Of a stretch of 23,012 bases of DNA, positions 4,747 to 22,100 are shown one piece after another. The position numbers and the translations under genes were made by a program. The first letter of the stretch is position 1. Each line of letters begins with the position of its first letter. The stretch comes from Candidatus Symbiothrix sp. Its GTDB lineage: Bacteria; Bacteroidota; Bacteroidia; Bacteroidales; Azobacteroidaceae. Below the pieces are notes generated by a model. The model had not been told where the DNA came from. It made no database searches and worked only from the letters and a program-made list of their open reading frames with translations. The stretch spans positions 1 through 23,012 of the forward strand of contig JAISWY010000350.1 of assembly GCA_031270925.1 (NCBI GenBank). The letters run 5' to 3'.

Positions 4747-6318
4747 TTACCTCCTCCCTACAATATTTTTCACAGCCTCTACTAAGTGATCAATTTCCTC
4801 AGTCGTATTATAAAACGCAAACGACGGCCGCACGGTAGCTTCCAATCCGAAACGGCGCAAAGACGGTTGTGCACAATGATGTCCGGCACGCAAGGCAATA
4901 CCTTCTCCATCCAACAATTTGCCGACTTCGGGAGCCGGAATGCCATCTACAACAAACGACACCACGCTAATTCGTTCTCGCGGATTGCCGATTAATCGTA
5001 TTCCGCCGATTTTACCCAGTGCTTCGCGGGCGTATTCGGTCAAAAAATGCTCGTATTTTTCAATATTGTGAATCCCTACACGGCTCACATAATCTAAAGC
5101 GGCGCCCAAACCGACGGCATCGGCCACGTTGGGCGTTCCGGCTTCAAACTTAGCGGGTGGCGCATTGAAAACGGTTTCTTCAAATGTTACATCTTTTATC
5201 ATGTTGCCGCCGCCTTGCCACGGCGGAAGCAAATCGAACAATTCTTTTTTACCGTACACGACGCCGATTCCGTTCGGAGCATAAATTTTATGTCCCGAAA
5301 AAACGAAGAAATCCACATCTAAATCCTGCACATCCACCGACGAATGGGCGATAGATTGAGCGCCGTCGATCAGCACACGGGCGCCGTATTGATGCGCCCG
5401 GTCAATCATGATTTTAGCGGGCGAAATTGTTCCGAAAGTGTTATTGACCTGCGCAAACGAAACAATTTTAGTACGCGGACTTAACAATCGCTCATATTCT
5501 TCCAAAATCACATCGCCCTTGTCATTGACCGGAATCACGAGCAATTTCGCTTGACGTTCTTTGGCCAATTGTTGCCAAGGCACGATATTCGCATGATGAT
5601 CCAATGTTGAAAGAATAATCTCATCGCCGGGCTGGATATATTTTCGTCCAAAAGTTTGAGCAACGAGATTGATGCCTTCCGTCGTTCCGCGCACAAAAAC
5701 GATTTCTTCTTCCGACGAAGCGTTGATGAAGCGCTTTACCTTTTCGCGTGCGCCTTCGTAACCGTCGGTTGCTCGCGCCGCCAAAGTATGCGAAGCGCGA
5801 TGAATATTGGAATTATCGTTTTCGTAATAATGCGAAATGGCGTCGATAACCGATTGCGGCTTTTGCGTGGTGGCGGCATTGTCGAACCAAATCAGGTCTT
5901 TTCCATGCACTTTTTGATGCAGAATTGGAAAATCTTTGCGAATCGCTTCCACATCGAAAGTTTCCCGGCCATTGTAGGTAATCGACTGATCGCGCAAAGA
6001 AGCGTAAGGCACGTAATTCGTGTTGGAAAATTCCTCCACAGCGGCGGTGTGCAAACGCGCATCTTCGGTTTTTCCTTCAATGTCGGCAATTTCGTCGGGA
6101 AAAAACAGGCCCTTCAATTCGCTGACTTCGGGAAAAGCGGTTCGTAAATTTTCGCAAAACGACGAACCGCCGAGCAACGAATCGAAACTTTGATACACCG
6201 AAGTCAAGTCAATGTCATCGGGAAGCGCCTGCGATGCCAATTGTTTTTCTTCCCCGTCGGAAAACCGTCCGGCAATTTCACGCAAAGCAGCAATATCTAT
6301 TTCTGAATTGTATTGCAT
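4747..6318 (-). CDS. sufS: SufS-like cysteine desulfurase, predicted encapsulin cargo
   Basis: This PLP enzyme removes sulfur from L-cysteine, giving alanine and an enzyme-bound persulfide. The catalytic part (residue 119 on) aligns in register with E. coli SufS at an offset of 118: His241, Asp318, Gln321, Lys344 (SGHK, PLP Schiff base), Cys482 (AGHHCAQP, persulfide) and Arg497 match SufS His123, Asp200, Gln203, Lys226, Cys364 and Arg379. The first 118 residues are additional, acidic and poor in predicted structure, with short hydrophobic patches (VYQSFDSLLG, LKGLFFPDE). Desulfurases packaged in family 2 encapsulins carry such N-terminal extensions as loading domains. The shell gene ends six bases upstream, so they form one unit. 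No SufE or other Suf genes are in the window, which argues for a role other than general Fe-S assembly. Confidence 0.93.
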   Translation of the reverse strand: MQYNSEIDIAALREIAGRFSDGEEKQLASQALPDDIDLTSVYQSFDSLLGGSSFCENLRTAFPEVSELKGLFFPDEIADIEGKTEDARLHTAAVEEFSNTNYVPYASLRDQSITYNGRETFDVEAIRKDFPILHQKVHGKDLIWFDNAATTQKPQSVIDAISHYYENDNSNIHRASHTLAARATDGYEGAREKVKRFINASSEEEIVFVRGTTEGINLVAQTFGRKYIQPGDEIILSTLDHHANIVPWQQLAKERQAKLLVIPVNDKGDVILEEYERLLSPRTKIVSFAQVNNTFGTISPAKIMIDRAHQYGARVLIDGAQSIAHSSVDVQDLDVDFFVFSGHKIYAPNGIGVVYGKKELFDLLPPWQGGGNMIKDVTFEETVFNAPPAKFEAGTPNVADAVGLGAALDYVSRVGIHNIEKYEHFLTEYAREALGKIGGIRLIGNPRERISVVSFVVDGIPAPEVGKLLDGEGIALRAGHHCAQPSLRRFGLEATVRPSFAFYNTTEEIDHLVEAVKNIVGRR

Positions 6319-6324
6319 AAATCG

Positions 6325-7764
6325 TTACTTCAATGTAATTTTCCGGTTATTATAGTCATGGTAATAACCCACTTCCACGTTTTCGAGTACGGCAATTGCA
6401 TCATCGGTCAATGAAGCCAGCGAAAAATATTTGGTAAGCAAATAACTTGCAACGGCAAATTTATCCAGAGCCATCAAACGCGCGGAAAGGCTTGGCGCTA
6501 TCTCTCCCGGAATACCTGCTTGATGCAGACCGACAATGCCTTGTTCCTGTTCGCCGGTACGGACAAGGATAATGTTGGTCGTCCCCACGCCACGGTTAGT
6601 CAAATATTGACCTTGAATTTCGACTTTATCACTCGGAATAATCGGAACGCCGCGCCACGTAACCACCGGAACGCCGAACACAACCGTTGTTACAGGCGGA
6701 ACGCCACGCCACGTACATTCACGTTCAAAAGCAGCAATCGCCCGCGGATGCGCGAGGAAAAATGACGGTTTTTTCCAAACCAAAGATAAAAGTTCATCCA
6801 AATCATCAGGGGTTGGTGCGCCATAACGTGTGCTGATGCGATAGCCCGGTTCGACGCTCGCCAATAAACCGAAATCACGGTTATTAATCAATTCCCATTC
6901 CTGCCGTTCCTTGATACTTTCGATACTCAAACGCATTTGTTGTTCGAGTTGATTGTAGGGATTGTTGTACAAATCCGTAACCCTCGTATGCACGCGCACC
7001 ACTGTTTGAAGCGTGTTGAGCGGATATTCACGCGGTTCTTCTTCGTAATCGATATAGGTTTCGGGAATGATATTGTCTTCTTCATGTCCCGAAACGAGGT
7101 CGATATGCTTTTCGCCGTGGGTATTCACGGTCGCTTTGAGGCGCAAATGCTCATCGACGGCTTTTTGGAACTGCTCGCGGAAAGTTGGAATATCTTTGAT
7201 GATTTCTTCCAGTTCATTACTTTTCAGCGTAAAAAACACAGCCGGCGTAATCGCTTTGACCGTTACGGACGACGGCTGATCGGAAAGCAAACTCGCTTCG
7301 CCGAAATATTCCCCTTCGGAAAGGATGGCGATACGCAAATCTTCGCCATGCGTACCCTTGCTTGAAATTTCCACTTGCCCTTGTGCGACGATAAAGAATT
7401 TTTGCGGGTCTTTACCGGCTTTTATCAGATTGCCGCCCAAATCGGTATTTTCGATTTGGAACTTTTTAGCTAAGCGGGTTACAATATCGTCGTCGATATG
7501 CGCAAACAGAGGAATGCGGCGGAACGATTCCACGCGGAACGAAGGCACGCCTTCAAAAAATTCGACCTCAATGCGCTCGGCTTTTTTCAGTTCCACTTTG
7601 GTGCGGTTCACACGGTAAGTACCCGAATCGACCTGCACCCAAGGCAGGAGTTTCAACAAAAGACGTGGGGTAATCGACCCCATTTGCGGCGGGGTTTTCG
7701 TGGTGGTCGCTAATTTTTTTGCGGTTGCAGTTGCGATGCTGCGTTGTAAATCATTTTGTGCCAT
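6325..7764 (-). CDS. Family 2 encapsulin shell protein with cyclic-nucleotide-binding-type insertion
   Basis: This is a shell subunit of an HK97-fold protein nanocompartment. I start it at the ATG at 7764 (MAQNDLQRS), 479 residues, rather than at 7791, which overlaps the -7 element. Residues 1-80 are the N-terminal arm and the first HK97 strands. Residues 84-205 form a Crp-type nucleotide-binding domain (RIPLFAHID, FFIVAQGQVEIS, YFGEASLLSDQP). Residues 215-479 resume the capsid fold (YPLNTLQTVVRVHTRVTDLY, LLASVEPGYRIS, FFLAHPRAIAAFERE). This architecture matches family 2B encapsulins. The phosphate-binding cassette keeps FGE but has Ser165-Ser166 where Crp has Arg82-Ser83, so nucleotide binding is doubtful. 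TWRGVP occurs twice (351-356, 369-374). The cysteine desulfurase follows six bases later. No phage genes are near. Confidence 0.92.
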   Translation of the reverse strand: MAQNDLQRSIATATAKKLATTTKTPPQMGSITPRLLLKLLPWVQVDSGTYRVNRTKVELKKAERIEVEFFEGVPSFRVESFRRIPLFAHIDDDIVTRLAKKFQIENTDLGGNLIKAGKDPQKFFIVAQGQVEISSKGTHGEDLRIAILSEGEYFGEASLLSDQPSSVTVKAITPAVFFTLKSNELEEIIKDIPTFREQFQKAVDEHLRLKATVNTHGEKHIDLVSGHEEDNIIPETYIDYEEEPREYPLNTLQTVVRVHTRVTDLYNNPYNQLEQQMRLSIESIKERQEWELINNRDFGLLASVEPGYRISTRYGAPTPDDLDELLSLVWKKPSFFLAHPRAIAAFERECTWRGVPPVTTVVFGVPVVTWRGVPIIPSDKVEIQGQYLTNRGVGTTNIILVRTGEQEQGIVGLHQAGIPGEIAPSLSARLMALDKFAVASYLLTKYFSLASLTDDAIAVLENVEVGYYHDYNNRKITLK

Positions 7765-7788
7765 AAAATCTGTGTTTATATTGAGATA

Positions 7789-7837
7789 CAAAAGTATGGC
7801 TGATATTCTTTTGGGACAATACCGTTTTTGTGGTATT
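7789..7837 (-). promoter_or_regulatory. Encapsulin promoter with shared AATACC-N8-GGTATT operator (site 1)
   Basis: The palindrome is at 7818-7837. On the minus strand it is followed, after exactly 21 bases, by TACTTTTG (7789-7796), a full TAnnTTTG match. The palindrome takes the place of the -33 TTTG, which suggests that a bound activator helps recruit RNA polymerase. Transcription would begin near 7783, some 20 bases before the shell gene. Confidence 0.8.
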
Positions 7838-7838
7838 T

Positions 7839-7979
7839 TTATTCGAGAGTATCGGACAACATTCCGCCGCTTACAGTTTTGCTTGTTTGCGGGTCATGAA
7901 GGCAAATCGGACTGTCGCAGTTTTTGCATGTTCTGAAGTAAAAGCCACATTGTTGAGTTGGAAATTCAAGATTTATCAG
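7839..7979 (-). other. Cys-rich open frame in the +1 frame after the JAMM gene
   Basis: The minus strand is open for 46 codons between an in-frame TAG and the TAA at 7839. It would encode CGFYFRTCKNCDSPICLHDP and a short polar tail, with four cysteines and a His spaced like a zinc or Fe-S ligand set. It has no ATG, GTG or TTG before the cysteines; the first plausible codon is a CTG at 7977-7979. It overlaps the JAMM gene end in the +1 frame, so it could be a lost or frameshifted C-terminal extension of that protein, a gene with a rare start, or chance. It runs across the upstream part of the encapsulin promoter region and stops just before the operator. Confidence 0.25.
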
Positions 7980-8400
7980 ATTGTATCTCTACTTCAACAA
8001 CTTCTCCCGCCCTAATCGAAAACGCTTTAAGAACCGGATTATCCTCCTCCTGCAAAGAAAGAATAAGATAAAAAATATTCGGGTCGAACGCCAAGCGAAT
8101 ATCCTCCTGCGAGGGACGCGCCGGCGATGCGGGATGACTGTGGTAATTGGCAACAATCCGCAAACCATGCACACGAGCTTCGCGCAATACGCTAAATTGC
8201 TCTTTCGGATCGAATGAAAAATGTTCGGGGCTACGGTCGATATTTTCCATTGGATATTGTTTTTTTATAGAGACAGTTTGCAATGTATTGCTAGCGTTGC
8301 CGATAATTTCGCCGGCCAATAATCCGCAAGCTTCATTGGGAAGTTCGTTGCGGGCTTGCTCAATAATGCCGTCGATGATTTTTTGCGGAATGCAAATCAT
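7966..8400 (-). CDS. JAMM-motif (Mov34/MPN, Mec+-type) metalloprotease
   Basis: This 144-residue, single-domain protein has the complete JAMM zinc site: Glu23 in NEACGLLAG, then His87-x-His89-x7-Ser97-x2-Asp100 in NYHSHPASPARPSQED. Prokaryotic members of this size act on ubiquitin-like sulfur carriers. Mec+ of Mycobacterium cuts cysteine from the CysO-cysteine adduct, and HcyD and QbsD trim C-terminal extensions to expose Gly-Gly. Both jobs are plausible here because a carrier with a GGG-SK end and a cysteine synthase lie 2 kb away in the same regulon. Its ATG overlaps the tusA stop codon by four bases, so translation is coupled. It has no signal peptide and is cytoplasmic. The choice between trimming and release of cysteine cannot be made from sequence alone. 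Confidence 0.9.
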   Translation of the reverse strand: MICIPQKIIDGIIEQARNELPNEACGLLAGEIIGNASNTLQTVSIKKQYPMENIDRSPEHFSFDPKEQFSVLREARVHGLRIVANYHSHPASPARPSQEDIRLAFDPNIFYLILSLQEEDNPVLKAFSIRAGEVVEVEIQSDKS

Positions 8401-8624
8401 TTTTCTATCTCCACGTTATAAATGCCTTTCGTTCCCGTTTCGGTTACGGAAAGCACGTTGAATCCCTGTTCGGCAGCGCTTTTCGGAACGTTTTCCAAAG
8501 CTTCGCCTTCGCTGAGTTTCACATTTAAAATATCTCCCGTGCGAAGTTTGCTCAACTCGATTTTTGTTTTCACAAAAGTCATCGGACAATGTTCTTTTGT
8601 AATATCTAAATTGTAGGTTGCCAT
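8397..8624 (-). CDS. tusA: TusA-family sulfurtransferase
   Basis: This 75-residue sulfur carrier has the TusA signature Cys13-Pro14-Met-x3-Lys19 near the N-terminus and the usual beta-alpha-beta-alpha-beta pattern. TusA proteins receive a persulfide on the conserved cysteine from a cysteine desulfurase or rhodanese and pass it to DsrE-type proteins or biosynthetic enzymes in the cytoplasm. It starts 25 bases after the DsrE2-like gene and overlaps the JAMM gene by four bases. The DsrE2-TusA pairing is a known module in sulfur-handling bacteria; here the usual rhodanese partner is absent and a cysteine desulfurase is present in the neighbouring unit, a plausible donor. The family call is firm; the specific partners are inferred. 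Confidence 0.9.
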   Translation of the reverse strand: MATYNLDITKEHCPMTFVKTKIELSKLRTGDILNVKLSEGEALENVPKSAAEQGFNVLSVTETGTKGIYNVEIEK

Positions 8625-8649
8625 TTGTTTGAACTACGATTTTGGAGAT

Positions 8650-9138
8650 TTATATGAAAAGAGTTTGTCCACCTTCGGAAAGATTCAAAAAAGACGCAAC
8701 GCCCAAAACATCTTTGATTTCGGGAATAAAATCGCTTTTCTGCAAGCCGAGTATGTGCATTGCCATTTCGCAGGCATAAAAATTGATACCCAAAACCTTG
8801 GCCGCTTCCACCAGTTCTTCCAAAGTCGCCACATTGTTTTTCCTCATCAGATAACGGAAAATTTTCGGACTGATTCCGCCGAAATTCAACCGGCTGACCG
8901 GCGCCGATTTTAATCCACCCATAAAAATTCCGAATACTTTGGGCAAGAATCCTTTTCCGACCGGCGAACGGCCGAGTTTTTTCTTGATAGCATCCAAACC
9001 CCAAAAAGTAAAGAAAAGGTTTACTTCGTATCCTACGGCGGCGGCTCCCGTTGCAAGGGTAAAAACAGCCGTCAGTTTGTCGAAATCGCCGCTAAAAGCG
9101 ATGATTGACAATTTTTTTGTTTGTTTTTCTTCTGCCAT
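8650..9138 (-). CDS. DsrE2-like sulfur-transfer protein (DsrE/DsrF family)
   Basis: This 162-residue protein has the DsrE/F-like fold: SIIAFSGDFDKL, then AVFTLATGAAAVGYEVNLFF, and near the C-terminus the DsrE2 signature YACEMAMHILG with Cys123, the predicted persulfide carrier. A Gly/Pro/Lys-rich middle part (residues 60-85) is typical of the DsrE2 subgroup, often annotated as a peroxiredoxin-family protein. Some DsrE2 proteins have membrane segments; this one has one moderately hydrophobic N-terminal helix (residues 24-50) and may associate with the membrane. It is the first gene of the unit dsrE2-tusA-JAMM and sits behind operator site 2. I infer that it exchanges sulfur with TusA. Confidence 0.85.
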   Translation of the reverse strand: MAEEKQTKKLSIIAFSGDFDKLTAVFTLATGAAAVGYEVNLFFTFWGLDAIKKKLGRSPVGKGFLPKVFGIFMGGLKSAPVSRLNFGGISPKIFRYLMRKNNVATLEELVEAAKVLGINFYACEMAMHILGLQKSDFIPEIKDVLGVASFLNLSEGGQTLFI

Positions 9139-9164
9139 GATATTTGCGTTGAAATTATAAAGTG

Positions 9165-9213
9165 CAAATGTAAGGTTGAAATTTTGAACGGGAAATACCT
9201 TGTTTATGGTATT
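9165..9213 (-). promoter_or_regulatory. dsrE2-tusA-JAMM promoter with shared operator (site 2)
   Basis: AATACC-TTGTTTAT-GGTATT lies at 9194-9213, extended by one more matching pair on each side. After 21 bases on the minus strand comes TACATTTG (9165-9172), a full -7 match. Layout and spacing are identical to sites 1 and 3. The predicted transcript begins near 9160, about 20 bases before the ATG at 9138. Confidence 0.8.
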
Positions 9214-9224
9214 TTTCGTATTTG

Positions 9225-9285
9225 TGCCGAAAACGGCATTTCACTCAATCGCCGCCAAACTTTGGAATCTTATGATTTTTGGCGG
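9225..9285 (-). terminator. Two hairpins after the E1-like gene, possible terminator
   Basis: Just after the stop of the E1-like gene, CCGCCAAA pairs with TTTGGCGG (9278-9285 with 9252-9259, 18-base loop). Then TGCCG-TTTT-CGGCA forms a second stem (9225-9238). They lie between the stop codon and the next promoter, the right place to separate the two units. Neither has a T-tract on the minus strand, so termination is uncertain. Confidence 0.3.
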
Positions 9286-9293
9286 TATTCCGT

Positions 9294-10115
9294 TCAGCGC
9301 TTGTCTTTTCGATGGCTTGCAAGGTCGCAGGCTGTCTGTTCGTAATCAATCAAAGTTGTTACCGTGGGATGTTCGCCACAAACGGGACATCGGCCGGAGC
9401 GCTTGGTGCGGATGGTTCGAAAATCCATCGTTTTTGCGTTGAACGAGAGTAAGCGGTTCGTCAGTAATTCGCCGACTCCGGTAAAATACTTCAATACTTC
9501 CGCCGCTTGAATAGTTCCCAACATACCGGCGATGGCTCCCAAAACGCCCGCTTGCGAACAAGTCGGAACAGCATTAGGTGGCGGCGGGGAATTGAACAAA
9601 CAGCGGTAACAGGCATTTCCGGGCGTGTGCGTAAATGTTTGTCCTTCAAAGCGCAATATTCCACCGTGGGAAAACGGTTTTCCAGCCAACACGCAGGCAT
9701 CATTAATCAAAAATTTGACGGGAAAATTATCCGTCCCATCCACAATAAAATCGTAATCTGTGATAATGTCGAAAGCATTTTCGGAAGTGAAAAGTTCCTG
9801 ATAAATATTTACTTTCACATCGGGATTCAGTTGATTGATTTTTTCTTTTGCCGAAAGCACTTTGGGTTTATTCACATCGGCTGTAAAATGGATGATTTGT
9901 CGTTGCAAATTGCTTAAATCCACAACATCGCCATCAATAATTCCAATTGTGCCAAGACCTGCCGCCGCCAGATAAAATGCGACGGGAGCGCCCAAACCGC
10001 CGGCGCCGATAATCAACACTTTACCGGCCTTGATTTTTTCCTGACCTTCCACGCCGACATCTTGAAGCAAAATGTGGCGACTGTATCGTGTAATTTGATC
10101 TTCTGTGAAATCCAT
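9294..10115 (-). CDS. MoeB/ThiF/HesA-type E1-like adenylyltransferase
   Basis: This enzyme adenylates the C-terminal glycine of a ubiquitin-like sulfur carrier so that sulfur can be transferred to it as a thiocarboxylate. The 273 residues show the nucleotide motif GAGGLG (37-42), the RQ pair at 72-73, Asp127 in DGTDN, two zinc pairs (C169/C172 and CPVC 243-246) and the conserved Cys186 in PTCSQAG. It ends after the second zinc pair with no rhodanese domain, unlike MoeZ, so sulfur must come from another protein, plausibly TusA or the desulfurase. The ATG shares one base with the stop of the carrier gene (TAATG), implying coupled translation of the two partners. MoeB and ThiF cannot be separated by sequence alone; the neighbours favour a cysteine-forming role. 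Confidence 0.92.
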   Translation of the reverse strand: MDFTEDQITRYSRHILLQDVGVEGQEKIKAGKVLIIGAGGLGAPVAFYLAAAGLGTIGIIDGDVVDLSNLQRQIIHFTADVNKPKVLSAKEKINQLNPDVKVNIYQELFTSENAFDIITDYDFIVDGTDNFPVKFLINDACVLAGKPFSHGGILRFEGQTFTHTPGNACYRCLFNSPPPPNAVPTCSQAGVLGAIAGMLGTIQAAEVLKYFTGVGELLTNRLLSFNAKTMDFRTIRTKRSGRCPVCGEHPTVTTLIDYEQTACDLASHRKDKR

Positions 10116-10324
10116 TATTTGCTTCCTCCTCCCATAAAGTAAAGGAAATCAATTTCGTCGCCGTCGTTGATGATGGTTGCGTAATCTTCTTGATAGACAA
10201 ATTCGCCGTTGAGTTGGATGGATACCATATCCGGTTGGGCAACTTGGTTTAGGATGAGCAGTTCTGAGAGCGTGATGGGGAGTTTCAATTCTTGGACTTC
10301 CCCGTTTACTTTTATTTTTGCCAT
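10115..10324 (-). CDS. ThiS/MoaD/CysO-like sulfur carrier with a GGG-SK tail
   Basis: This ubiquitin-like carrier has 69 residues from the ATG at 10324; an ATG at 10348 in the same frame would overlap the cysteine synthase end and is less likely. The fold pattern is typical: MAKIKVNGE beta hairpin, a helix with TLSELL, then VSIQLNGEFV, an acidic turn (INDGDEIDFL) and the tail FMGGGSK. Carriers normally end exactly at Gly-Gly, which is adenylated. Here Ser-Lys follow, so the C-terminus should need trimming before activation, as known for HcyS and QbsE, which are processed by JAMM proteases. The cysteine synthase gene ends 13 bases upstream and the E1 gene overlaps downstream, an order that recalls the CysO/CysM/MoeZ system. 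Confidence 0.9.
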   Translation of the reverse strand: MAKIKVNGEVQELKLPITLSELLILNQVAQPDMVSIQLNGEFVYQEDYATIINDGDEIDFLYFMGGGSK

Positions 10325-10337
10325 TGTTTTTAGAATT

Positions 10338-11276
10338 TTAACGATCAAATTGATAGAGCGGGGTTGAGAGATAGCGTTCGCCGGTATCAGGCAAAATAGT
10401 TACGATGGTTTTGCCTTTGTTTTCTATTCGTTTAGCGATTTGCAAGGCCGCACAAACTGCGGCTCCGGAAGAAGCGCCTACCAGCAAGCCTTCTTCTCGT
10501 GCCAGTAAACGACTGATACTGAAAGCTTCGTCATTTTTTATTTTGATAATTTCGTCCACAATTGCAGCATTAAAGACTTTCGGAACAAATCCGGCGCCAA
10601 TACCTTGTATCTTGTGCGGACCGGGTTTTCCGCCCGAAAGCACCGGTGAATCGAACGGTTCGACTGCCACTACCCTAATATTCGGATTGTATTTTTTGAG
10701 TTTTTCACCCACTCCGGTAACCGTGCCGCCCGTACCCACGGCCGAAACGAAAATATCGACCTTTCCATCGGTATCTCGCCAAATTTCTTCTGCGGTCGTA
10801 ACCCGATGAATTTGCGGATTGGCCGGATTTTGAAATTGTTGCGGAATGAACGAGTTCGGATACTGTTTTTGCAGTTCTTCCGCTTTACGGATGGCGCCAC
10901 TCATGCCTTCAAAACCGGGCGTAAGTACGATTTCAGCGCCTAAAGCACGTAACAGGCTGCGACGTTCAACGCTCATGGTATCCGGCATGGCGAGTATCAA
11001 CTTATAGCCTTTGGATGCTGCAATGAAAGCCAATGCGATACCGGTATTTCCACTTGTAGGCTCTATGATAACGGTTTGCGAAGTGATTAAACCTCGCTCT
11101 TCAGCATCTTCAATCAATGACAAACCAATGCGGTCTTTCACACTGCGGGCGGGATTCAAGTATTCGAGTTTCCCTAGCACATGAGCCTCTATTTTCAGGA
11201 ACTTTTGCACTCTGCCGAGTTCGAACAAAGGTGTATTTCCGATTAATTCGGTCAGTTTTTTAGCAATTTTAGCCAT
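10338..11276 (-). CDS. cysK: Cysteine synthase family PLP enzyme (CysK/CysM)
   Basis: This 312-residue fold type II PLP enzyme forms cysteine from an activated serine and a sulfur donor. Visible are [11 protein letters not shown] at the N-terminus, Lys47 in [11 protein letters not shown] (Schiff base), [11 protein letters not shown] (substrate loop), GTGGTVTG (phosphate-binding, 181-188) and GASSGAA (267-273). Length and motifs fit O-acetylserine sulfhydrylase. It is the first gene of a unit with a sulfur carrier and its E1, so its sulfur donor could be the carrier thiocarboxylate, as for mycobacterial CysM, rather than free sulfide. Whether it prefers O-acetylserine or O-phosphoserine is not clear from sequence, and no serine acetyltransferase is nearby. 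Operator site 3 is about 60 bases upstream of the ATG. Confidence 0.93.
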
Positions 11277-11304
11277 AATGATATTGTACTTTTATTTGAA
11301 AGTA

Positions 11305-11353
11305 CAAAGGTGGCGGAAAGTTTTGAAACCGGAAATACCACAAACAAGGTATT
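11305..11353 (-). promoter_or_regulatory. cysK-carrier-E1 promoter with shared operator (site 3)
   Basis: The palindrome is at 11334-11353, with one more matching pair outside. On the minus strand it reads AATACC-TTGTTTGT-GGTATT. CACCTTTG (11305-11312), one base from the -7 consensus, follows after 21 bases. The core is almost the same as in site 2 (TTGTTTAT) and close to site 1, when site 1 is read on the plus strand (GTTTTTGT). Confidence 0.8.
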
Positions 11354-11476: not shown

Positions 11477-13057
11477 TTATAAACGAAGAATGGCCGCATC
11501 CTGAGCCGGGACGACGACCGGGTAGGAAATTTCCTTTTGATTCGTTACACCGAAATATTCCCAAGCGTGTTGCGGAATCAAAACAGCGCAATTTACATCC
11601 TTTTCATCGAAATTTGCGACCACCAGCCAGCATTCGTTTTCGGCATAACGTAAAAAAGCGAATTGTTTTTCGTTTAAAGCCGGATTCATATACATTAAAT
11701 CGAAAAATTTTCCCGATCGAAAGGCCGTATTTTCACGACACAAACGTAATATTTTAATATAAAAATCGCATAATTTTGTTTGTTCATCCGTTTGCGGATT
11801 CCGGAACGACGGCAAGCTCCAATAATCGAAAATCGTAGTCCGCCCATCGCAACCGCTGAAACCTTCGGAGTCCATTCCGCGTTCGCCCAGTTCCTGACCG
11901 AAATACACCATGAAGGGATTCCCGTTCATCAAAGCAGAAACCGCTACGGCCGAACGAGCTTTCATTCCATTGCCCGCAAAAAAATGGGAAGCGATACGCT
12001 GCTCGTCGTGGTTTTCCAAAAAATTCAACATCTGAGCTTGAATATCGGCGACCGATTGCCAACAGCAGGTAATAGCCGCCGCCGGTTTCCGTCCGCAAAC
12101 CACATCACGCAAAGTATCGTATAAGCCGACTTTATCGTATAAATAATCGAATTTTCCGATGGAAAGGTAATTTCTGTATTCGTTAGGATTATACACTTCG
12201 GCGATAAAAAGGATTTCGGGAGAATGTTTTTTGATTTGCGGAATGACCCAAGCCCAAAATTCCACCGGAACCATTTCGGCCATATCGCAACGGAAGCCAT
12301 CGACTTTTTTTCCTGCCCAAAACAATAAAATATCCCGCATTTTCGACCATGTATCGGGAATCGGGTCGAAATGCGTTTGGCGGCCGTTCAAATAATCCAC
12401 ACCGTAATTCAGTTTTACAGTTTCGTACCAATCATTTGCGTTGGGATGTGCCGAAAAGCAATCGTTGCCTGTGGCTTTGGCCGGATATTCGTCGTAAAAA
12501 ACGCCCTTTTCATCGGCCAATGAAAAGTCGGGAGCAAATTTTTGTCCCGGAATATAATAGAAATTATTATCGCGGTCGAAAGTTGTTATCGGATTATCGG
12601 AAGCGCCCAAATTTTGCACTTTTTCCGGCTTTCCATCGGAAAAATACTCCCTCGCTACATGGTTGGGAACAAAATCGATAATCGCCTTTAATCCGGCGCG
12701 ATGCGTTCGTTCAATCAATTCTTCAAATTCGCCCATTCTTTCGGGAATATTGAGCGCCAAATCAGGATCGACTTGGTAATAATCCTTGATGGCGTAGGGC
12801 GAACCGGCCTTGCCCTTCACAATTGCCGGATGGTTGTCGCGAATCCCGAAATTGGAATAGGAAGTCTGCGTAGCGTGTTCTATAACGCCGGTGTACCAGA
12901 TATGCGAAAAACCCATTTTATGGATATTTTGCAAGATTTCATCGGAAAAACCGGCCATTTTTCCGCAACCGTTTTCCTCGATATTTCCATTCGGAACGGG
13001 GTTCGGATTTTTGTTTCCAAACAAGCGGGGCAAGACTTGATAGATTGTTAGTTTCAT
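11477..13057 (-). CDS. GH13 alpha-amylase-family enzyme, cytoplasmic
   Basis: This 526-residue glycoside hydrolase family 13 protein has no signal peptide, so it should act on internal alpha-glucans or imported maltodextrins. The four conserved GH13 regions are present: DFVPNH (128-133), GFRCDMAE with nucleophile Asp258, FIAEVYN with acid/base Glu287, and FLENHDEQR with Asp351. The start MKLTIYQVLPRLFG is typical of a Bacteroidetes subgroup that retains all catalytic residues, and the last 90 residues form the C-terminal beta domain. A clear promoter lies 24 bases upstream. It separates the sulfur island from the polysaccharide cluster and has no obvious link with either. The exact bond specificity cannot be read from the sequence. 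Confidence 0.92.
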   Translation of the reverse strand: MKLTIYQVLPRLFGNKNPNPVPNGNIEENGCGKMAGFSDEILQNIHKMGFSHIWYTGVIEHATQTSYSNFGIRDNHPAIVKGKAGSPYAIKDYYQVDPDLALNIPERMGEFEELIERTHRAGLKAIIDFVPNHVAREYFSDGKPEKVQNLGASDNPITTFDRDNNFYYIPGQKFAPDFSLADEKGVFYDEYPAKATGNDCFSAHPNANDWYETVKLNYGVDYLNGRQTHFDPIPDTWSKMRDILLFWAGKKVDGFRCDMAEMVPVEFWAWVIPQIKKHSPEILFIAEVYNPNEYRNYLSIGKFDYLYDKVGLYDTLRDVVCGRKPAAAITCCWQSVADIQAQMLNFLENHDEQRIASHFFAGNGMKARSAVAVSALMNGNPFMVYFGQELGERGMDSEGFSGCDGRTTIFDYWSLPSFRNPQTDEQTKLCDFYIKILRLCRENTAFRSGKFFDLMYMNPALNEKQFAFLRYAENECWLVVANFDEKDVNCAVLIPQHAWEYFGVTNQKEISYPVVVPAQDAAILRL

Positions 13058-13144: not shown

Positions 13145-14116
13145 TCAGGACAAAAATTTAAATTTCACTAAATAAACTAATACTAAAATAAGGGAAATAG
13201 CGATAGCGGCAACGCTTTCAAATTGCGGAAATTTGAAATGAACGGCAATGATTACACCGCCAATCAGCAGCTGGATTGCTGCATAAAGGAAAGAAACAAG
13301 TTGATGAGATAAGTGTTTTTCATTGGCAAGGATTTGATAGAAATGCAAGCGGTGTGGTTTGAAAATATTTTGTTTGAGACATAAGCGATGTAGAATTGTG
13401 AAAACCGTATCCACACCGTAAACAGCAAGGAACATTATCCAGATGATGGAATTGGTTTTAAGCATCAGTTGCAGGAGCGATGTTACTATCCAGAATGAGA
13501 TGGCCATGCTGCCGATGTCGCCGGCGAAGCATTTGGCTTTCTTTCTGAAATTGAAAAACAGGAAAACAATACAGGCGATTATCGCAAAATTGATGAAATC
13601 CGGCTCCGTGAACAAGTATTTCCGGTTTATGTATTGTAAGGAAATTAAGATTGCAAGACTATACAGACCGGTTATTCCATTGATACCGTCCATGAAATTG
13701 TAGGCGTTGAGGATACCCACGAAGAAAATGTAAGCAATGAGGATTAAGTACCAAGGCAAAGTTGAATAGAGGTTTAGCCCGTAGAAAACCAGTGAGATAG
13801 AGAGAAAATGAATGATTATTCGTATTTTGTTTGGTAATGATTTTATATCATCCCAAAAACTGACGATAGAAAGCATGGTCAGACCGGAGAAGAAAGAGAC
13901 TATGGGGACGGTAGGGATGGGAACAGACGAGACGGTAAGGGCAATAATAAAATACAGGAGAGCCGCTAACCAGAAGACAATGCCGCCGCCGCGTATTGTG
14001 ATGTAATTGTGCGAACTGCGGGTATTGGGTTTGTCGATGATGTTGTATTTGTCGGCTATCTTGAAATAAACCAACTCGCAGACAAAAAGGATAATTGTTA
14101 TTATCGCGTAAATCAT
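13145..14116 (-). CDS. Polyprenyl-phosphate sugar-1-phosphate transferase (WecA/WbpL-like)
   Basis: This integral membrane enzyme transfers a sugar-1-phosphate, probably an N-acetylhexosamine type, from a UDP-sugar to undecaprenyl phosphate, the first step in building a surface polysaccharide repeat unit. The 323 residues contain about ten hydrophobic segments. Conserved cytoplasmic motifs are visible: Asp89-Asp90 (SFWDDIKSLP), NAYNFMDGINGITG (137-150), FAGDIGSMA (197-205) and the HRLHFYQ loop (255-261). Length fits the WecA/MraY family, and the HR-x-HFYQ loop favours WbpL/WecA over MraY. It overlaps the epimerase gene by four bases and is the last gene of the cluster's transcript; amylase reads the same way downstream under its own promoter. 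The exact sugar is unknown. Confidence 0.9.
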   Translation of the reverse strand: MIYAIITIILFVCELVYFKIADKYNIIDKPNTRSSHNYITIRGGGIVFWLAALLYFIIALTVSSVPIPTVPIVSFFSGLTMLSIVSFWDDIKSLPNKIRIIIHFLSISLVFYGLNLYSTLPWYLILIAYIFFVGILNAYNFMDGINGITGLYSLAILISLQYINRKYLFTEPDFINFAIIACIVFLFFNFRKKAKCFAGDIGSMAISFWIVTSLLQLMLKTNSIIWIMFLAVYGVDTVFTILHRLCLKQNIFKPHRLHFYQILANEKHLSHQLVSFLYAAIQLLIGGVIIAVHFKFPQFESVAAIAISLILVLVYLVKFKFLS

Positions 14117-15087
14117 TGGTTTTTAAAACTTTTAATTGTTTTTTCAAAACTTGATTTGGCCGGTATCGGCATTTTTTCTATTTGCAGAGCTTTTTTGATT
14201 TTTTCATTACAAACAACATAGTTTTCGGTTAATTTGCGTAATCGTTCGCTATTGAGAGGCAAATGAAGGACTGTTCCGAGTTTGGCGGCGAAATTCATCA
14301 ATTTGGGCGAAAGTTTCCAGATTCTGCTCTTTTTGCCTAAAATTGATACAATCAATTCGATTAATTCGTTGGTCGATAATGTTTCGTCGTCAGAAACATT
14401 GTAAATTCCCGGTTGAATATCTTTTTCGAGCAGATTTTTCACAACGAACGCAATATTGTCAATTGAAGTGAAAGAACGTCGATTTTCAAATGCGCCGAGT
14501 GGATAGGGGATGCCACGCTTGACGAAATTGTAGAGCAGATTAAGATTTCCCTTGTTGCCGGGGCCGTGAATCATTGCTGGACGTAGGATGTAAATGGTTT
14601 TTAATTGCGAGTGGAGAATTGAAAATTGAGAATGGATGTAGTTTTCGGCGGCGATTTTACTTTCGCCGTAAGGACCGACAGGTTGAGAAATGACATCTTC
14701 GGTCAGGAAATTGCCGATTACAGTTTCGGCAGCGGCTTTTACGGTACTGAAAAAGATGAATTTCGTTGCGCTTGTGTGCAGGAAATAATCGAATATCTTT
14801 TGGGTTAAGCCTAAATTTATGTCGAAATATTCCTGTCGTAACAAGGAGGTATCACCCCTTGCCGGTCGTCGGGTATCGTGCGCCTTGCCTGCGAGGTGGA
14901 CAACGGCGTCAATGCACGGTGAAAACGTTGCACGCAAGGTTTTTACATCGTTCCATGAAAATGTTTTGACAATACCTGCTTTTTTGGGAAAAACGATATC
15001 CAAACCGTAGATGCTATGGTCGTTTTTCAATGCTTCGACGAGATTGGAGCCAACAAAGCCGTGTATGCCCGTAATTAAAAGATTCAT
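14113..15087 (-). CDS. NAD-dependent nucleotide-sugar epimerase/dehydratase
   Basis: This extended short-chain dehydrogenase has 324 residues: GIHGFVGSN (7-15) binds NAD, Ser114 and Tyr140-x3-Lys144 (PYGESK) are the catalytic set, and LRPAMIHGPGNKGN and RRSFTSIDN mark the sugar-binding part. It resembles GalE/WbpV-like 4-epimerases that pair with a WecA-type transferase, which overlaps it by four bases downstream. It probably makes the UDP-sugar used as the first residue of the polysaccharide. Residues 151-162 (IHSQFSILHSQL) are encoded by an AT-rich repeat unit and look like an in-frame insertion. The precise substrate cannot be told. Confidence 0.9.
   Translation of the reverse strand: MNLLITGIHGFVGSNLVEALKNDHSIYGLDIVFPKKAGIVKTFSWNDVKTLRATFSPCIDAVVHLAGKAHDTRRPARGDTSLLRQEYFDINLGLTQKIFDYFLHTSATKFIFFSTVKAAAETVIGNFLTEDVISQPVGPYGESKIAAENYIHSQFSILHSQLKTIYILRPAMIHGPGNKGNLNLLYNFVKRGIPYPLGAFENRRSFTSIDNIAFVVKNLLEKDIQPGIYNVSDDETLSTNELIELIVSILGKKSRIWKLSPKLMNFAAKLGTVLHLPLNSERLRKLTENYVVCNEKIKKALQIEKMPIPAKSSFEKTIKSFKNQ
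14604..14634. repeat. AT-rich short repeat in frame inside the epimerase gene
   Basis: On the plus strand the units gagtGGAGAATT, GAAAATT and GAGAAT follow each other. Such TTGAAAATT/GAGAATT strings are common between genes in Bacteroidetes; here one lies inside a coding region without breaking the frame. A similar stretch occurs at 15670-15702. Confidence 0.5.
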
Positions 15088-15851
15088 TTATTCTTTGTAA
15101 AAATCAATTCAAAAACTTTGATAAAATACTTCAATGATAAGATAAAAAGATTGGTATAAATTCCGTTTTCGCGACAGGCGCGGACGATTTCCCGATTCAA
15201 TAGCAAATTACTTTTCCATGATTTTGTACTTTTGCCGCCCGTCCTCATTTTAATAATGTCGAAAGCGAGGTAACGATGCGAAATTTGATGTTTGTACAAG
15301 AAGCGGATCAATAATTCGTAATCGGCTGCAATATGATAACATGTTTTGTAACAGCCGATTGTGTTAAATAATTTTCTTCGAATGAAGCAGGACGGATGCG
15401 CCGGCATAAATCCGAAACGGAACAATGAGGGTTTAAATTTGGCCGACGAATAATATCGCACTGTCTTTGTCAAATCGTCGGGATGGACGAAACGAACATC
15501 GGAATAGCACATATCGGCGCCGGTTTTGCGCAAATAATTGACCATTGTTTCGATGGAACCGGGGTAATTATAGAAATCATCGGCATTCAGTATCGCGACA
15601 AAATCTCCGGTAGCCATTCGGATGCCTTTGTTCATGGCGTCATACATACCCTTGTCCGGTTCTTTGACGAGTTGAAAATTGAAAGTTGTGAGTTGAAAAT
15701 TGTTTTTGATAATGTCGAGCGTTCCATCTGTCGAACCACCGTCAATAATGATATATTCAATATCACGGTAAGTCTGCGTCAAAACCGACTCAATGGTGGT
15801 TGCAATCGTCTTTTCGCTGTTGTAGCAGACAGTAATGATGGAGATTTTCAT
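15084..15851 (-). CDS. Family 2 glycosyltransferase (WcaA-like)
   Basis: This 255-residue GT-A fold transferase adds one sugar to the growing polysaccharide unit at the inner membrane face. It starts MKISIITVCYN, shows TIESVLTQTYRDIEYIIIDG, and has the nucleotide-sugar and metal site around LNADDF (88-93), followed by GFMPAHPSCFIRR, a pattern of this subgroup. Residues 51-62 (NFQLTTFNFQLV) are encoded by an AT-rich repeat and replace what is normally a short variable loop. The stop overlaps the epimerase start by four bases. A 108-base gap separates it from the upstream glycosyltransferase. Donor and linkage are unknown. Confidence 0.92.
   Translation of the reverse strand: MKISIITVCYNSEKTIATTIESVLTQTYRDIEYIIIDGGSTDGTLDIIKNNFQLTTFNFQLVKEPDKGMYDAMNKGIRMATGDFVAILNADDFYNYPGSIETMVNYLRKTGADMCYSDVRFVHPDDLTKTVRYYSSAKFKPSLFRFGFMPAHPSCFIRRKLFNTIGCYKTCYHIAADYELLIRFLYKHQISHRYLAFDIIKMRTGGKSTKSWKSNLLLNREIVRACRENGIYTNLFILSLKYFIKVFELIFTKNK
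15670..15702. repeat. AT-rich short repeat in frame inside a glycosyltransferase gene
   Basis: The plus strand reads GTTGAAAATT, GAAAGTTGTG, AGTTGAAAATT in succession, encoding the duplicated FQL of the WcaA-like enzyme. It belongs to the same repeat type as 14604-14634. Confidence 0.55.
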
Positions 15852-15959
15852 AAGATTTGCAAATCGATAGGTAGGAATATTCCTGATAAATCAAACATAT
15901 ATAAACTTGCGCAATATTCAGCGGAATGTGGTAAAAGAAATTGCATTCAATGGTTGAAT

Positions 15960-16796
15960 CTACCACAAGGCAATTCCTTTTTCTTTCATTTTCAATTCTT
16001 TAACTTTAAGTACGATAAAATATTCATAAATACCGATTAAAAAAGAATAAGTCAGACCGGGTTTTCCATCCAAAAATCCTCGACTGACAAAATACATGTG
16101 TATAAATCGAAAAAAAGGACGTAAGGGCAATCTGAAAGATAGTTTTTTCAGCATATTCCTTCTTTCAATCGTATCTTTGGAAAATAGACCTGCTATCTTA
16201 AAATCTCCATTGATAAGTGATTTTATCGTTTCTTCGGCTTCATAACTACTATATTTATTATGTCTTTCAATCCAATCGAAATAGCCTTTACTGAAAAAAT
16301 AATGTTCGAATTTGTTTTTAAGATAACCCGCTTTTCCATTAAACGTTGCAACCGGATTTGCTCCTCTATCCCATTCGATGTATGCAGGTTTCCACAGTCG
16401 AGCGATCCAAGCTTGCTCCCCTCCGCAATGTTTCAACCATTTTCCCATAAAATAGTTTTCACGTCGAGCAAAAAACACGACTTCTTCCGTGTCGGGATTG
16501 GAACAGATTTTTTGGATTTCTTCGGCTAAAGATGGTGGAGTTACTTCGTCTGCATCCACATACCAAACCCAATCATACTTAAAATCAATGTTTTTTACCG
16601 CCCAATTTTGATTGTTTGCCCGGCCATCGTATTTGCGTTGAAAAAAACGACATCCATATTGCTTTGCAATTACTTCGGTTCTATCGCAGCTAATAGAATC
16701 AAGAACAACTATATCGTCACTCCATTTCAAGCTGTCAAAACATCTTGGAAGATTTTTTTCTTCGTTCAATGTTTGTATAAAAATAGATACGCACAT
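15960..16796 (-). CDS. Family 2 glycosyltransferase (WaaE/KdtX-like)
   Basis: This 278-residue GT-A enzyme has the pattern of the WaaE/KdtX group: SIFIQTLNEEKNLPRCFDSL, the segment WSDDIVVLDSISCDRT, then GRANNQNWAVKN and the metal site VDADE (80-84). The motif GGEQAWIARLWK and the histidine-aromatic stretch FEHYFFSKG are also seen in that group. The C-terminal 60 residues include two hydrophobic helices (FIHMYFVSRGF, YSFLIGIYEYFIVL) that probably touch the membrane. The tail KVKELKMKEKG is encoded by AT-rich repeat-like sequence. It begins two bases after the stop of the beta-propeller-like gene. The sugar it transfers is unknown. Confidence 0.9.
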   Translation of the reverse strand: MCVSIFIQTLNEEKNLPRCFDSLKWSDDIVVLDSISCDRTEVIAKQYGCRFFQRKYDGRANNQNWAVKNIDFKYDWVWYVDADEVTPPSLAEEIQKICSNPDTEEVVFFARRENYFMGKWLKHCGGEQAWIARLWKPAYIEWDRGANPVATFNGKAGYLKNKFEHYFFSKGYFDWIERHNKYSSYEAEETIKSLINGDFKIAGLFSKDTIERRNMLKKLSFRLPLRPFFRFIHMYFVSRGFLDGKPGLTYSFLIGIYEYFIVLKVKELKMKEKGIALW

Positions 16797-16798
16797 CT

Positions 16799-18064
16799 TT
16801 ATTTTGTTATTTCTGAAACATCTATAATATACATACTCCGGCTTCCATTCATTGCAGAATCAATCAAAATTTTGTTTCCCTCGTGATTCGATCGTGGATG
16901 CAAATCAACCCGAATCTCCTTATCCAATTTTTTAGGAGTATAAAATCTGCCTGTTTCGACGAAATCATTGTTGGCCGTGTTAAATAGAAATAGAGGTTGT
17001 TTATTATCCAAGTCGGGATAACCATCTGTTAATATCCACTTTTTATTAAGAGAATAAGTGCAATGACCGTCGCAATACATTATTCCAAAGCCTATCCGTT
17101 CCGAATTATTTGCAGATTCCATATCTTTTATCAAATAAAATGAGTCTCTCATTATCTTTTGCATCAATATTCTGGGTTTTCCTAAAAAATAATAAATCGG
17201 TTTAAGTGTTTTATTCAAGGCAGTCGTTAGACTAAACTTTTTAGGAGTGCCATTCCCTATTAATTTGCGTTTGCCTGCCCACGCCAATATGGTTTCATTA
17301 TCCTTCCAATCGTAATGGCTTATCATACCTTCAAAAAGCAGACGGATGTCTTTCCCTTCCAAATCGGAAGTAAACAAACGGCTTTGAGTAATCCTGTCGT
17401 TTCTTTCATAGCGATGCAGAAAACAAAAACGATTGCTTGACGGATTGAACATGAGATGATTGACATATTGCTTTTTATCGCCAATATATACTTTACTTGT
17501 TTCCGACAATGTTTTTATCGATACAATCAATTTATATGTTTGAGTTGTCAAATCATACAGGAAAATACCATCATTATCGGGAGTATTTACATTCTTGTTC
17601 GTATCAATTATACCGAAAATACCATAATCTATCTTTGTATCATAAAGTCGTCCGTAGTTCAAAGTCAGTATTTTTGTTCCGTCACGGCTTACCGTATAAA
17701 TGGAAGAATCTATTATTGTCTTTTCAAGAGTATCCGCATCAACCATGCAACCCTTAATTGTATTGTTGATTCTTTGATTATAAATAATTTTCTCTTTCCC
17801 ATCATGGGTAATCCATTGAAGTTGAGAGCCTTGTTGCCAATTCCATGCAGATGTGGCATCTATCTTGACGAAAGTATTCGTCAATAAATCAATATATCCA
17901 ACTTCGGCAGTTTCGTTTTCGGGGAAATGGTCTAAAAACGATATTCGATGAGCCAATATTTTATCTTCCGCCTTATTCCACGGGCATCTATCGTAATATC
18001 CGAAAAAATATTGATAGCCGTCGTCCGGAGTAATTTTACTGATTGGGCAGTCTGTTTTTTTCAT
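16799..18064 (-). CDS. Predicted beta-propeller-like protein of the polysaccharide cluster
   Basis: This 421-residue protein has no catalytic motif I recognise. It shows repeated beta-strand blocks of the WD40/TolB or oligogalacturonate-lyase-like type: YSVSRDGTKILTLNYGRL, QYVNHLMFNPSSNRFCFLHR, GIMYCDGHCTYSLNKKWILTDGYPD and a final HPRSNHEGNKILIDS. The His-x-x-Ser-Asn-His segment and the repeated aspartates could bind metal. It starts KKTDCPISKITPDDGYQYFFGYYDRCPW without a signal peptide, suggesting a cytoplasmic location. Proteins of this kind occur in Bacteroidetes exopolysaccharide clusters between glycosyltransferases. It overlaps the acetyltransferase gene by 29 bases. It could be a glycan-binding protein or an unusual lyase; the role is open. 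Confidence 0.75.
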   Translation of the reverse strand: MKKTDCPISKITPDDGYQYFFGYYDRCPWNKAEDKILAHRISFLDHFPENETAEVGYIDLLTNTFVKIDATSAWNWQQGSQLQWITHDGKEKIIYNQRINNTIKGCMVDADTLEKTIIDSSIYTVSRDGTKILTLNYGRLYDTKIDYGIFGIIDTNKNVNTPDNDGIFLYDLTTQTYKLIVSIKTLSETSKVYIGDKKQYVNHLMFNPSSNRFCFLHRYERNDRITQSRLFTSDLEGKDIRLLFEGMISHYDWKDNETILAWAGKRKLIGNGTPKKFSLTTALNKTLKPIYYFLGKPRILMQKIMRDSFYLIKDMESANNSERIGFGIMYCDGHCTYSLNKKWILTDGYPDLDNKQPLFLFNTANNDFVETGRFYTPKKLDKEIRVDLHPRSNHEGNKILIDSAMNGSRSMYIIDVSEITK

Positions 18065-18632: not shown

Positions 18633-18671
18633 TTGCTTTTTGCAAATTTTTAGATGAATAATATCCGGTTT

Positions 18672-18903
18672 TCAGGTATGAGTAATGATAATAATTCCTA
18701 TTTGGTTTCGCGATGCCAGCAATACAAATCGTGTTTGAGCAAAGGGATTCCGTTTGTCTGACAACCGATCGGTTTCAATATAGGTAGCAAGCACTTCGGG
18801 CAAGCCGCCTCTCAACAACAATGGCTTACGTCGTTTGCAATCTTTCCATTCAAGCAGACGGCTGTCTATTTTTCGTTTATAATATTTTATTGGCTCGCGC
18901 TCA
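18672..18903 (-). pseudogene. Remnant of a DUF4143-type AAA ATPase gene
   Basis: The minus-strand frame reads YYKRKIDSRLLEWKDCKRRK and then PLLLRG, which is the N-terminus of the DUF4143 ATPase family just before its Walker A motif. It then jumps directly to GGLPEVLATYIETDRLSDKR, which resembles a motif from the middle of the same family, and to unrelated residues. Walker A and B are missing, so about 200 codons were deleted internally. There is no proper start codon; the frame runs in from the glycosyltransferase gene. It is a dead gene wedged between two functional polysaccharide genes. Confidence 0.65.
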
Positions 18904-21140: not shown

Positions 21141-21182
21141 TATTAAAACGATTATATTTTCTGAAATATATGGTAAAATTGC

Positions 21183-22049: not shown

Positions 22050-22100
22050 GCGCTCGTACATTTTAATTTAAATAGGTAGTATTGGGCGAAAATTCATTTT

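Follow-up and report, generated by a model that had tools for sequence, protein, structure and literature searches.

A desulfurase encapsulin beside a sulfur-carrier relay in a candidate sulfur regulon of Bacteroidales

Encapsulin shell proteins are virus-derived, and encapsulins that hold a cysteine desulfurase reportedly store sulfane sulfur. In the accessible parts of the published accounts, desulfurase encapsulins are linked to sulfur storage (PMC12407261), 199 family 2B desulfurase operons are reported with serine O-acetyltransferase and rhodanese as named accessories (PMC8346489), the SrpI paper leaves open whether the sulfur of the encapsulated desulfurase goes to a carrier or to a store in the shell (PMC8049743), and the sulfur source of the mycobacterial CysO pathway is called unknown (PMC3227635). 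Here we describe a stretch of 23,012 nucleotides (the window), a 23-kb contig (JAISWY010000350.1) of a Candidatus Symbiothrix sp. genome that is 67% complete. An island of eight genes in the window encodes a family 2B encapsulin shell protein, its predicted desulfurase cargo and six partners: a ThiS-like carrier, an E1-like enzyme, a JAMM protease, TusA and a DsrE2-like protein (together, the relay), and a cysteine synthase of the CysK type. Because one palindrome leads all three gene groups of the island, and mostly sulfur genes in relatives, shell, desulfurase and relay look like one sulfur regulon.

Gene content and control sites

The eight genes are open reading frames, all on the minus strand, at positions 4747-11276:

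10338..11276, minus strand: cysteine synthase, CysK type (TIGR01139, 456.7 bits against a cut-off of 351; CysM model 309.9 bits, under its cut-off of 394.2)
10115..10348, minus strand: ThiS/CysO-like sulfur carrier with masked C-terminus FLYFMGGG-SK (TIGR01683, 47.6 bits against a cut-off of 37.5; alignment and C-termini)
9294..10115, minus strand: E1-like adenylyltransferase of the ThiF/MoeB type without rhodanese domain (PF00899, 271.5 bits, the sole Pfam family in its 273 residues)
8650..9138, minus strand: DsrE2-like sulfur carrier (PF13686, 135 bits; C123 invariant in 19 rows)
8397..8624, minus strand: TusA (PF01206, 66.1 bits; motif HCPMTFVKTK)
7966..8400, minus strand: JAMM metalloprotease (PF14464, 90.2 bits; invariant residues)
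6325..7791, minus strand: family 2B encapsulin shell protein (NF041163, 566.6 bits against a cut-off of 400; SrpI-like HK97 domain PF19307, 379.3 bits) with a cyclic-nucleotide (cNMP)-binding-type insert at residues 122-199 (PF00027, 59.1 bits)
4747..6318, minus strand: SufS-type cysteine desulfurase with an N-terminal extension of about 120 residues, predicted shell cargo (TIGR01979, 559.5 bits; 2A-cargo model NF041166, 769.3 bits, just under its cut-off of 800)

The original prediction named eight adjacent minus-strand genes of these families, and reading frames and profile matches bear it out; its family 2 shell is here placed in subfamily 2B. Intergenic gaps define three gene groups, CysK-ThiS-E1, DsrE2-TusA-JAMM and shell-desulfurase, each with the same palindrome and a promoter-like box:

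11335..11352, no strand: operator-like palindrome ATACC-N8-GGTAT before CysK-ThiS-E1, exact match
11305..11312, minus strand: promoter-like box CACCTTTG, 22 nucleotides from the palindrome at the CysK site, imperfect match to TAnnTTTG
9195..9212, no strand: operator-like palindrome ATACC-N8-GGTAT before DsrE2-TusA-JAMM, exact match
9165..9172, minus strand: promoter-like box TACATTTG, 22 nucleotides from the palindrome, exact TAnnTTTG
7819..7836, no strand: operator-like palindrome ATACC-N8-GGTAT before shell-desulfurase, exact match
7789..7796, minus strand: promoter-like box TACTTTTG, 22 nucleotides from the palindrome, exact TAnnTTTG

The three exact palindromes lie 55-59 bases from the likely gene starts and compare with 0.02 expected in the window; none of 100 shuffles had three. 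With one mismatch allowed, no further copy appears in the window (0.40 expected; one of 100 shuffles reached three). With a spacing of 8, the palindrome occurs 58 times, against 0.4 expected, in the window and 116 loci taken together (117 sequences, 1.43 Mb, after exclusion of overlapping loci), and each other spacing from 4 to 12 gives 0-3 copies; shell or carrier genes were the basis on which the loci were chosen, so the full regulon cannot be gauged from these counts. At a threshold of 14 bits, a weight matrix yields 73 sites (one counted twice, in L030 and L152; L and G numbers denote loci and genomes) and none in 298,299 random bases. The shell-scan loci from outside Bacteroidota contain no palindrome.

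By reading, 53 of the 58 exact sites precede island genes, sulfite reductase or carrier operons (sulfite reductase-TusA operons among them), housekeeping CysK genes (L143-L145), transporter-type genes (L098 and L099; L109 is a weak match) or a homocysteine-synthase-type gene (L109). The remaining exact sites precede a threonine synthase gene (L108) and an amidohydrolase gene (L037) or stand without an assigned gene (L027:14044, L029:6314, L100:6544). Downstream of 34 of the 58 palindromes, a box TAnnTTTG, the -7 element of Bacteroides promoters, starts at a distance of exactly 22 bases; the distance is 21 bases for two, and any other distance is seen in at most two. The opposite side has seven scattered matches. 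For genes on the minus strand, the side facing the gene was assigned manually, with L037:13516 left on the wrong side. The palindrome would bind a regulator and is a candidate sulfur-regulon operator for Bacteroidales; no such regulator was found, and a literature search for a CymR/Rrf2 link gave nothing usable on Bacteroidetes.

Weaker matrix sites are located before an anaerobic sulfatase maturase gene (L102, 2010-3290) and near an NlpA lipoprotein gene (L039) and a NifH-family gene (L108:4396), and a palindrome-like site at 3887 of L030 precedes a frame similar in length to the L102 maturase. Sulfate scavenging may belong to the same regulon. The NifH-family gene at 3370-4254 of L108, near the desulfurase of G060, is perhaps part of a nitrogenase-like organosulfur reductase.

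The nearest solved chains to the shell protein by sequence are 9bje and 9bhu, matched over residues 15-475, and its nearest relatives, at up to 95% identity, come from Bacteroidales metagenome-assembled genomes. Comparison with the relatives places the true start of the shell gene probably at the ATG at 7764 and that of the carrier gene probably at the ATG at 10324. Canonical cNMP domains carry a phosphate-binding arginine, which is not defining for family 2B encapsulins; serine or alanine takes its place in the window and in the printed Bacteroidales rows, and control of the shell by cNMP is unlikely because this arginine is missing. The desulfurase keeps the PLP-lysine motif SGHK in all 63 aligned rows and the catalytic-cysteine motif HHCAQP in 62 of the 63; 126 residues precede its R.DFP motif (50-264 in relatives), with little conservation. 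By kinship with SrpI-CyD, it would be loaded inside the shell (PMC8049743, in its accessible part). In the window's own genome, a second N-extended desulfurase close to the shell cargo (L135, G000:C415, 5432-6847) is cut by a contig end and may mark a second island or a strain variant.

Four E1 cysteines (169, 172, 186 and 243) are invariant across 15 aligned rows, and a Pfam scan of the window E1 found the ThiF domain and no rhodanese domain. The JAMM residues E23, H87, H89, S97 and D100, those of HSHP..PS..D, are invariant in 18 rows. DsrE2-like is the right name for its gene, since the equivalog model NF047629 scores 77 bits, under its cut-off of 210.

Conservation and genome-wide co-occurrence

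Islands of shell and relay genes occur in gut and lake relatives of Bacteroides. Because the shell protein alone was the query, with one genome per species, the scan is free of bias towards the partners. It gave 73 loci. Without L074 (a 22-bit shell match), record titles assign 55 of these to Bacteroidales or other Bacteroidota, with a few sharing one genome, and 17 to other groups. A locus counted as comparable if it reached at least 5.5 kb upstream of the shell gene and at least 1.7 kb downstream (26 of the 55 and 8 of the 17). The desulfurase is present in all 26 Bacteroidales loci, TusA in 24, DsrE2 in 23, CysK in 22, JAMM in 20, ThiS and E1 in 16 each, and serine O-acetyltransferase in seven. 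All six partners are found in 16 of the 26, and every partner gene (123/123) is co-directional with the shell. Gene order varies by lineage (L006, L069, L032/L037/L040) and linkage is retained. The name serine O-acetyltransferase rests on a good sub-threshold match, since no match in the 13 shell genomes reaches the cysE model cut-off (best 153-177 bits). In L117 and L134, an esterase-like and an ATP-grasp-like gene lie between desulfurase and serine O-acetyltransferase (families tested in L117), and L115 has frames similar in size; these genes may add steps in some islands.

Outside Bacteroidota, the eight comparable loci hold the desulfurase in eight, CysK and serine O-acetyltransferase in two each, and TusA in one. 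One of these eight, from a Geobacteraceae genome, has the order shell-shell-desulfurase-TusA-CysK and, about 8 kb on, on the same strand and beyond the fetched flank, genes for DsrE2, serine O-acetyltransferase, a Cys/Met-metabolism enzyme, ThiS, E1, JAMM and sulfite reductase. Its ThiS-like gene (L129, 5274-5477) ends in LLLK, without GG, and may be broken, misassembled or not a thiocarboxylate carrier.

Genome-wide, we searched 393 Bacteroidales genomes (those at least 85% complete, plus the window's own), of which 11 have a shell match over the family cut-off. The island-type JAMM (E < 1e-40) is found in 11 of 11 shell genomes and 9 of 382 others, and the island-type DsrE2 (at least 244 bits) in 11 of 11 and 8 of 382; the next DsrE2 matches, at 137 bits or less, were treated as paralogs. 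The island-clade ThiS is found in all 11 shell genomes, in eight of the nine JAMM-only genomes (not G221), and also in Parabacteroides sp. Marseille-P3160 and Dysgonomonas capnocytophagoides. Left out were G345 and G113 (sub-cut-off shell) and the weak JAMM matches of G075, G352 and G012. Were the genomes independent, the chance of the JAMM co-occurrence would be about 2e-16 by genomes, 5e-11 by genera (8 shell genera among 14 JAMM genera of 204) and about 9e-9 by families, with genus and family counts read from tables, and the relatedness of the genomes makes all three figures too small. In 14 named genomes used as controls, Prok-JAB occurs in 8, SrpI-like in none, NIR_SIR and ThiS in 11 each, and CysK, SufS, CysE and ThiG in all 14.

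Neighbourhood counts, genome co-occurrence and palindrome counts together rule out chance adjacency. The grouping foreseen in the original prediction is thus above chance (16 of 26 loci with all six partners; 11 of 11 shell genomes with island JAMM and DsrE2). Shell-desulfurase pairs do not consistently lack the carrier genes in Bacteroidales, where the pair and the carrier genes form a conserved, apparently co-regulated unit.

Some genomes keep the relay genes away from the shell. Specifically, shell and ThiS-E1-JAMM block lie on different contigs, far from each other, in G383 and D. capnocytophagoides (L098), and G060 has E1 and JAMM about 20 kb from it; for this reason the dependence between relay and shell is not just linkage. 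G104 was not counted as unlinked, because its shell and carrier block, though on two contigs, are both no more than about 200 bases from a contig end (L106, L107) and may be neighbours; joined, these contigs would give an L032-like gene order.

On an E1 tree with 45 rows, the state 'beside a shell' changes six times, and at least five changes are forced by well-supported branches (G104 taken as linked; duplicates L067, L131, L134 and L118, and rows under 240 residues or 180 bits, left out). These changes may be joinings or separations of relay and shell. The E1s of L032, L037 and L040 nest among sulfite-reductase-linked E1s (support 100/97), and in these loci ThiS-E1-JAMM precedes CysK instead of following it; nesting and altered order suggest a separate joining. 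Distances of the shell correlate with those of its partners (r 0.63-0.82; 0 of 500 permutations as high), and therefore much was inherited together. Hitch-hiking by common descent alone is nevertheless rejected as a full account, given the at least five linkage changes and the relay genes away from the shell.

The island is flanked by genes for ribosomal protein L25 and peptidyl-tRNA hydrolase on one side and an alpha-amylase-type gene on the other; the latter lies directly before the island at 11477-13057, likewise in L037 (4168-5889). A DUF4099 protein and a fragment are located at 411-2047; the fragment we take to resemble a topoisomerase start, and the pair to be as in mobile elements. By eye only, frames at 13145-23012, of lower G+C, resemble glycosyltransferase and other polysaccharide genes. 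No Rfam match reached the gathering threshold within the window.

Sulfur flow through the island

With about even confidence, we propose that the island answers sulfur limitation, its three transcription units sharing one operator, and that the relay takes desulfurase sulfur to cysteine. The desulfurase inside the family 2B shell would strip sulfur from cysteine, and the sulfur would be held in the shell as sulfane sulfur or released as persulfide or polysulfide, a small form being proposed for the exit because TusA should not pass the shell wall. TusA and DsrE2 would collect the released sulfur and deliver it to the E1, a delivery proposed for an E1 with no rhodanese domain of its own. JAMM would first remove the tail of the ThiS-like carrier, leaving a free glycine end, the E1 would adenylate the trimmed carrier on the way to the thiocarboxylate, and the dedicated CysK would join the carrier sulfur to O-acetylserine to give cysteine, which JAMM may free from the carrier. 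We infer all of the sulfur transfers, the loading of the cargo, sulfur storage, the direction in which sulfur flows and the closed loop. HcyS and QbsE are carriers reportedly unmasked by a JAMM protease, and the unmasking step is modelled on them; perhaps JAMM also frees the cysteine adduct, as printed for Mec+ (accessible text of PMC3227635). A tentative extension, which we doubt somewhat, is a protein-walled sulfur bank, in which cysteine sulfur would be banked as sulfane in the 2B shell in good times and, under limitation, one regulon would return it to cysteine on carriers, without free sulfide, via a tail-locked carrier opened by JAMM.

The island has dedicated gene copies and a carrier with a masked end. 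In the window, as in all 25 locus copies, the carrier closes with FLYFMGGG and at least one further residue; among copies from whole-genome loci, that of L093 ends exactly at GGG. The closest solved carrier structure, 2k5p, also reads FLYFMGGGK. Family membership in ThiS and MoeB would allow carrier, E1 and JAMM to serve thiamine or molybdopterin synthesis and to stand here by accident, which we regard as highly improbable. Only the island-clade ThiS, and no strong ThiG, is found in 8 of the 13 shell genomes (two of them incomplete, G000 at 67% and G104 at 86%), and the other five have a strong ThiG (at least 349 bits), each with a second ThiS. On these counts a thiamine role is rejected, and a carrier working only in thiamine synthesis, the outcome against which the original prediction was set, is excluded. 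The thiamine-locus ThiS ends in a bare GG in four of the five, unlike the carrier; because the fifth (L137) is also tailed, this contrast is imperfect. PF02597, which should detect MoaD as well, returned no additional small protein standing alone.

Another CysK over the model cut-off is present in 12 of the 13 shell genomes (the exception, G000, is incomplete). In a tree of 63 CysK rows (duplicates L067, L131 and L134 removed), the Bacteroidales island copies form one group of 44 with support 97/90. L152, the sole row labelled housekeeping inside this group, is the shell-linked copy of G271, identical to L030; the other 11 housekeeping-labelled rows, the shell-less L111-L113, the second L021 copy and the copies of other phyla lie outside it. 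Long branches lead to L153, L107, L150 and L054. Tandem CysK-like genes precede the shell in L024/L105 and L021; the L105 copy at 10094-11008 aligns only from CysK model position 42, and its catalytic lysine may be absent. In G204, the island CysK is divided between two reading frames (L078, L133 = G204:C2).

The synthase might instead make cysteine to feed the desulfurase, with the shell acting as a sink or store that sulfur enters but does not leave, or as a source for iron-sulfur clusters. Such a role fits serine O-acetyltransferase, a known accessory of desulfurase encapsulins in the accessible text of PMC8346489 and present in 7 of 26 loci here, and the CysK beside the shell without relay in Planctomycetes L052 and L065. 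It leaves ThiS, E1, JAMM and DsrE2 unexplained, however, and since another SufS is found in 12 of the 13 shell genomes (exception G104), iron-sulfur supply should not need the island desulfurase. We consider it improbable.

Several points weigh against the passage of sulfur from shell to relay. The exit from the shell is its weakest step, as a TusA-type protein should not cross a closed shell and the hand-over from the desulfurase would be left unexplained. A cysteine-to-cysteine loop has no net yield unless storage or timing gives one. ThiS and E1 are missing beside the shell in 10 of the 26 Bacteroidales loci; none of the eight loci from other phyla has ThiS, E1, DsrE2 or JAMM within the fetched stretch, and of 16 genomes searched outside Bacteroidota, Prok-JAB passes its cut-off in five and no match over the JAMM family cut-off is found in 11. 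The relay does not depend on the shell, since a shell match is missing from nine genomes with JAMM. The palindrome also precedes genes without a tie to the shell. ThiS-E1-JAMM adjoins a sulfite reductase-TusA fusion in L098, L099, L101 and L102 (shell-less genomes and, away from its shell, D. capnocytophagoides); ABC-transporter genes also lie beside the block in L098 and L099, and L111 and L112 have a gene of homocysteine-synthase type or size in its middle (family tested in L111).

In the strongest rival, shell and relay are two arms of one sulfur-starvation response, with control and location in common but separate sulfur: the shell would store or limit cysteine sulfur, and the relay would make cysteine from sulfite- or sulfide-derived sulfur. 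The palindrome before sulfite reductase-TusA operons, housekeeping CysK, transporter and homocysteine-synthase-type genes agrees with it, as does the carrier block beside sulfite reductase in shell-less genomes, and co-regulation alone would account for much of the co-occurrence. On the other hand, 6 of the 11 shell genomes have the relay but no sulfite reductase match (five of the six at least 98% complete, three of those five of one genus). In the absence of such a match the relay there must use another source, and the adjoining desulfurase is the obvious one. TusA and DsrE2 also stay at the shell in L021, L029, L031 and L033, where ThiS, E1 and JAMM are not beside it, and the island CysK is a clade of its own. 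We take this separation of sulfur to be a real possibility, if a somewhat doubtful one, and retain transfer from desulfurase to relay as our proposal.

Comparison with described systems

The original prediction equated the carrier genes with the CysO/CysM/MoeZ/Mec+ pathway. This identity is rejected on three features, E1 domain, synthase type and carrier end: the island E1 has no rhodanese, its synthase scores 456.7 as CysK against 309.9 as CysM, and its carrier ends in GGG and a tail, whereas CysO ends in a bare GG. The HcyS/HcyD homocysteine route of Wolinella is said to have a masked carrier trimmed by JAMM and an E1 without rhodanese; it differs from the island in its product, homocysteine, and in having no shell. 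Homocysteine-synthase-type genes occur in the relatives L109 and L111, not in the window. JAMM, an E1 without rhodanese, TusA and a masked carrier, the class 4e/HcyS-type features, are all present in the island.

In its accessible text, the mycobacterial pathway shares with the island a ubiquitin-like carrier, an E1, a cysteine synthase and a JAMM-type protease; the island differs in its rhodanese-less E1, masked carrier, desulfurase and shell, TusA and DsrE2, and in a CysK-type synthase in place of CysM, with serine O-acetyltransferase in some islands (PMC3227635). As described in the accessible text of Iyer, Burroughs and Aravind (PMC1779556), class 4e combines a ThiS/MoaD-like protein, JAB, a rhodanese-less E1, SirA (TusA) and sulfur assimilation genes, as the island does, and the sulfite-reductase-linked carrier blocks of shell-less genomes resemble it. 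Class 4c likewise combines a ThiS/MoaD-like protein, JAB, E1 and cysteine synthase, but its E1 is fused to a rhodanese. Unlike the island, neither class comes with a mention of encapsulin or desulfurase in that text.

Closest are the 2A/2B desulfurase encapsulins, such as SrpI-CyD of Synechococcus, which have the same shell family and an N-extended SufS-type cargo and share serine O-acetyltransferase nearby in some loci and a link to sulfur starvation. To those in the accessible text of PMC8346489, the island adds TusA, DsrE2, ThiS, E1, JAMM and a dedicated CysK. A search of the literature on encapsulins with sulfur carrier proteins, TusA or cysteine synthase found no mention of such a relay, in sources that did not extend to supplements or most subscription papers. 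The island names candidate acceptors, an end product and a control site for the sulfur of an encapsulated desulfurase, testable in a defined system; it suggests how sulfur could enter and leave a desulfurase-containing shell, and a sulfur source for a CysO-like pathway. Desulfurase-loaded 2B encapsulins are known; the relay beside the shell and the palindrome that they share appear to be new, as far as the literature covered shows.

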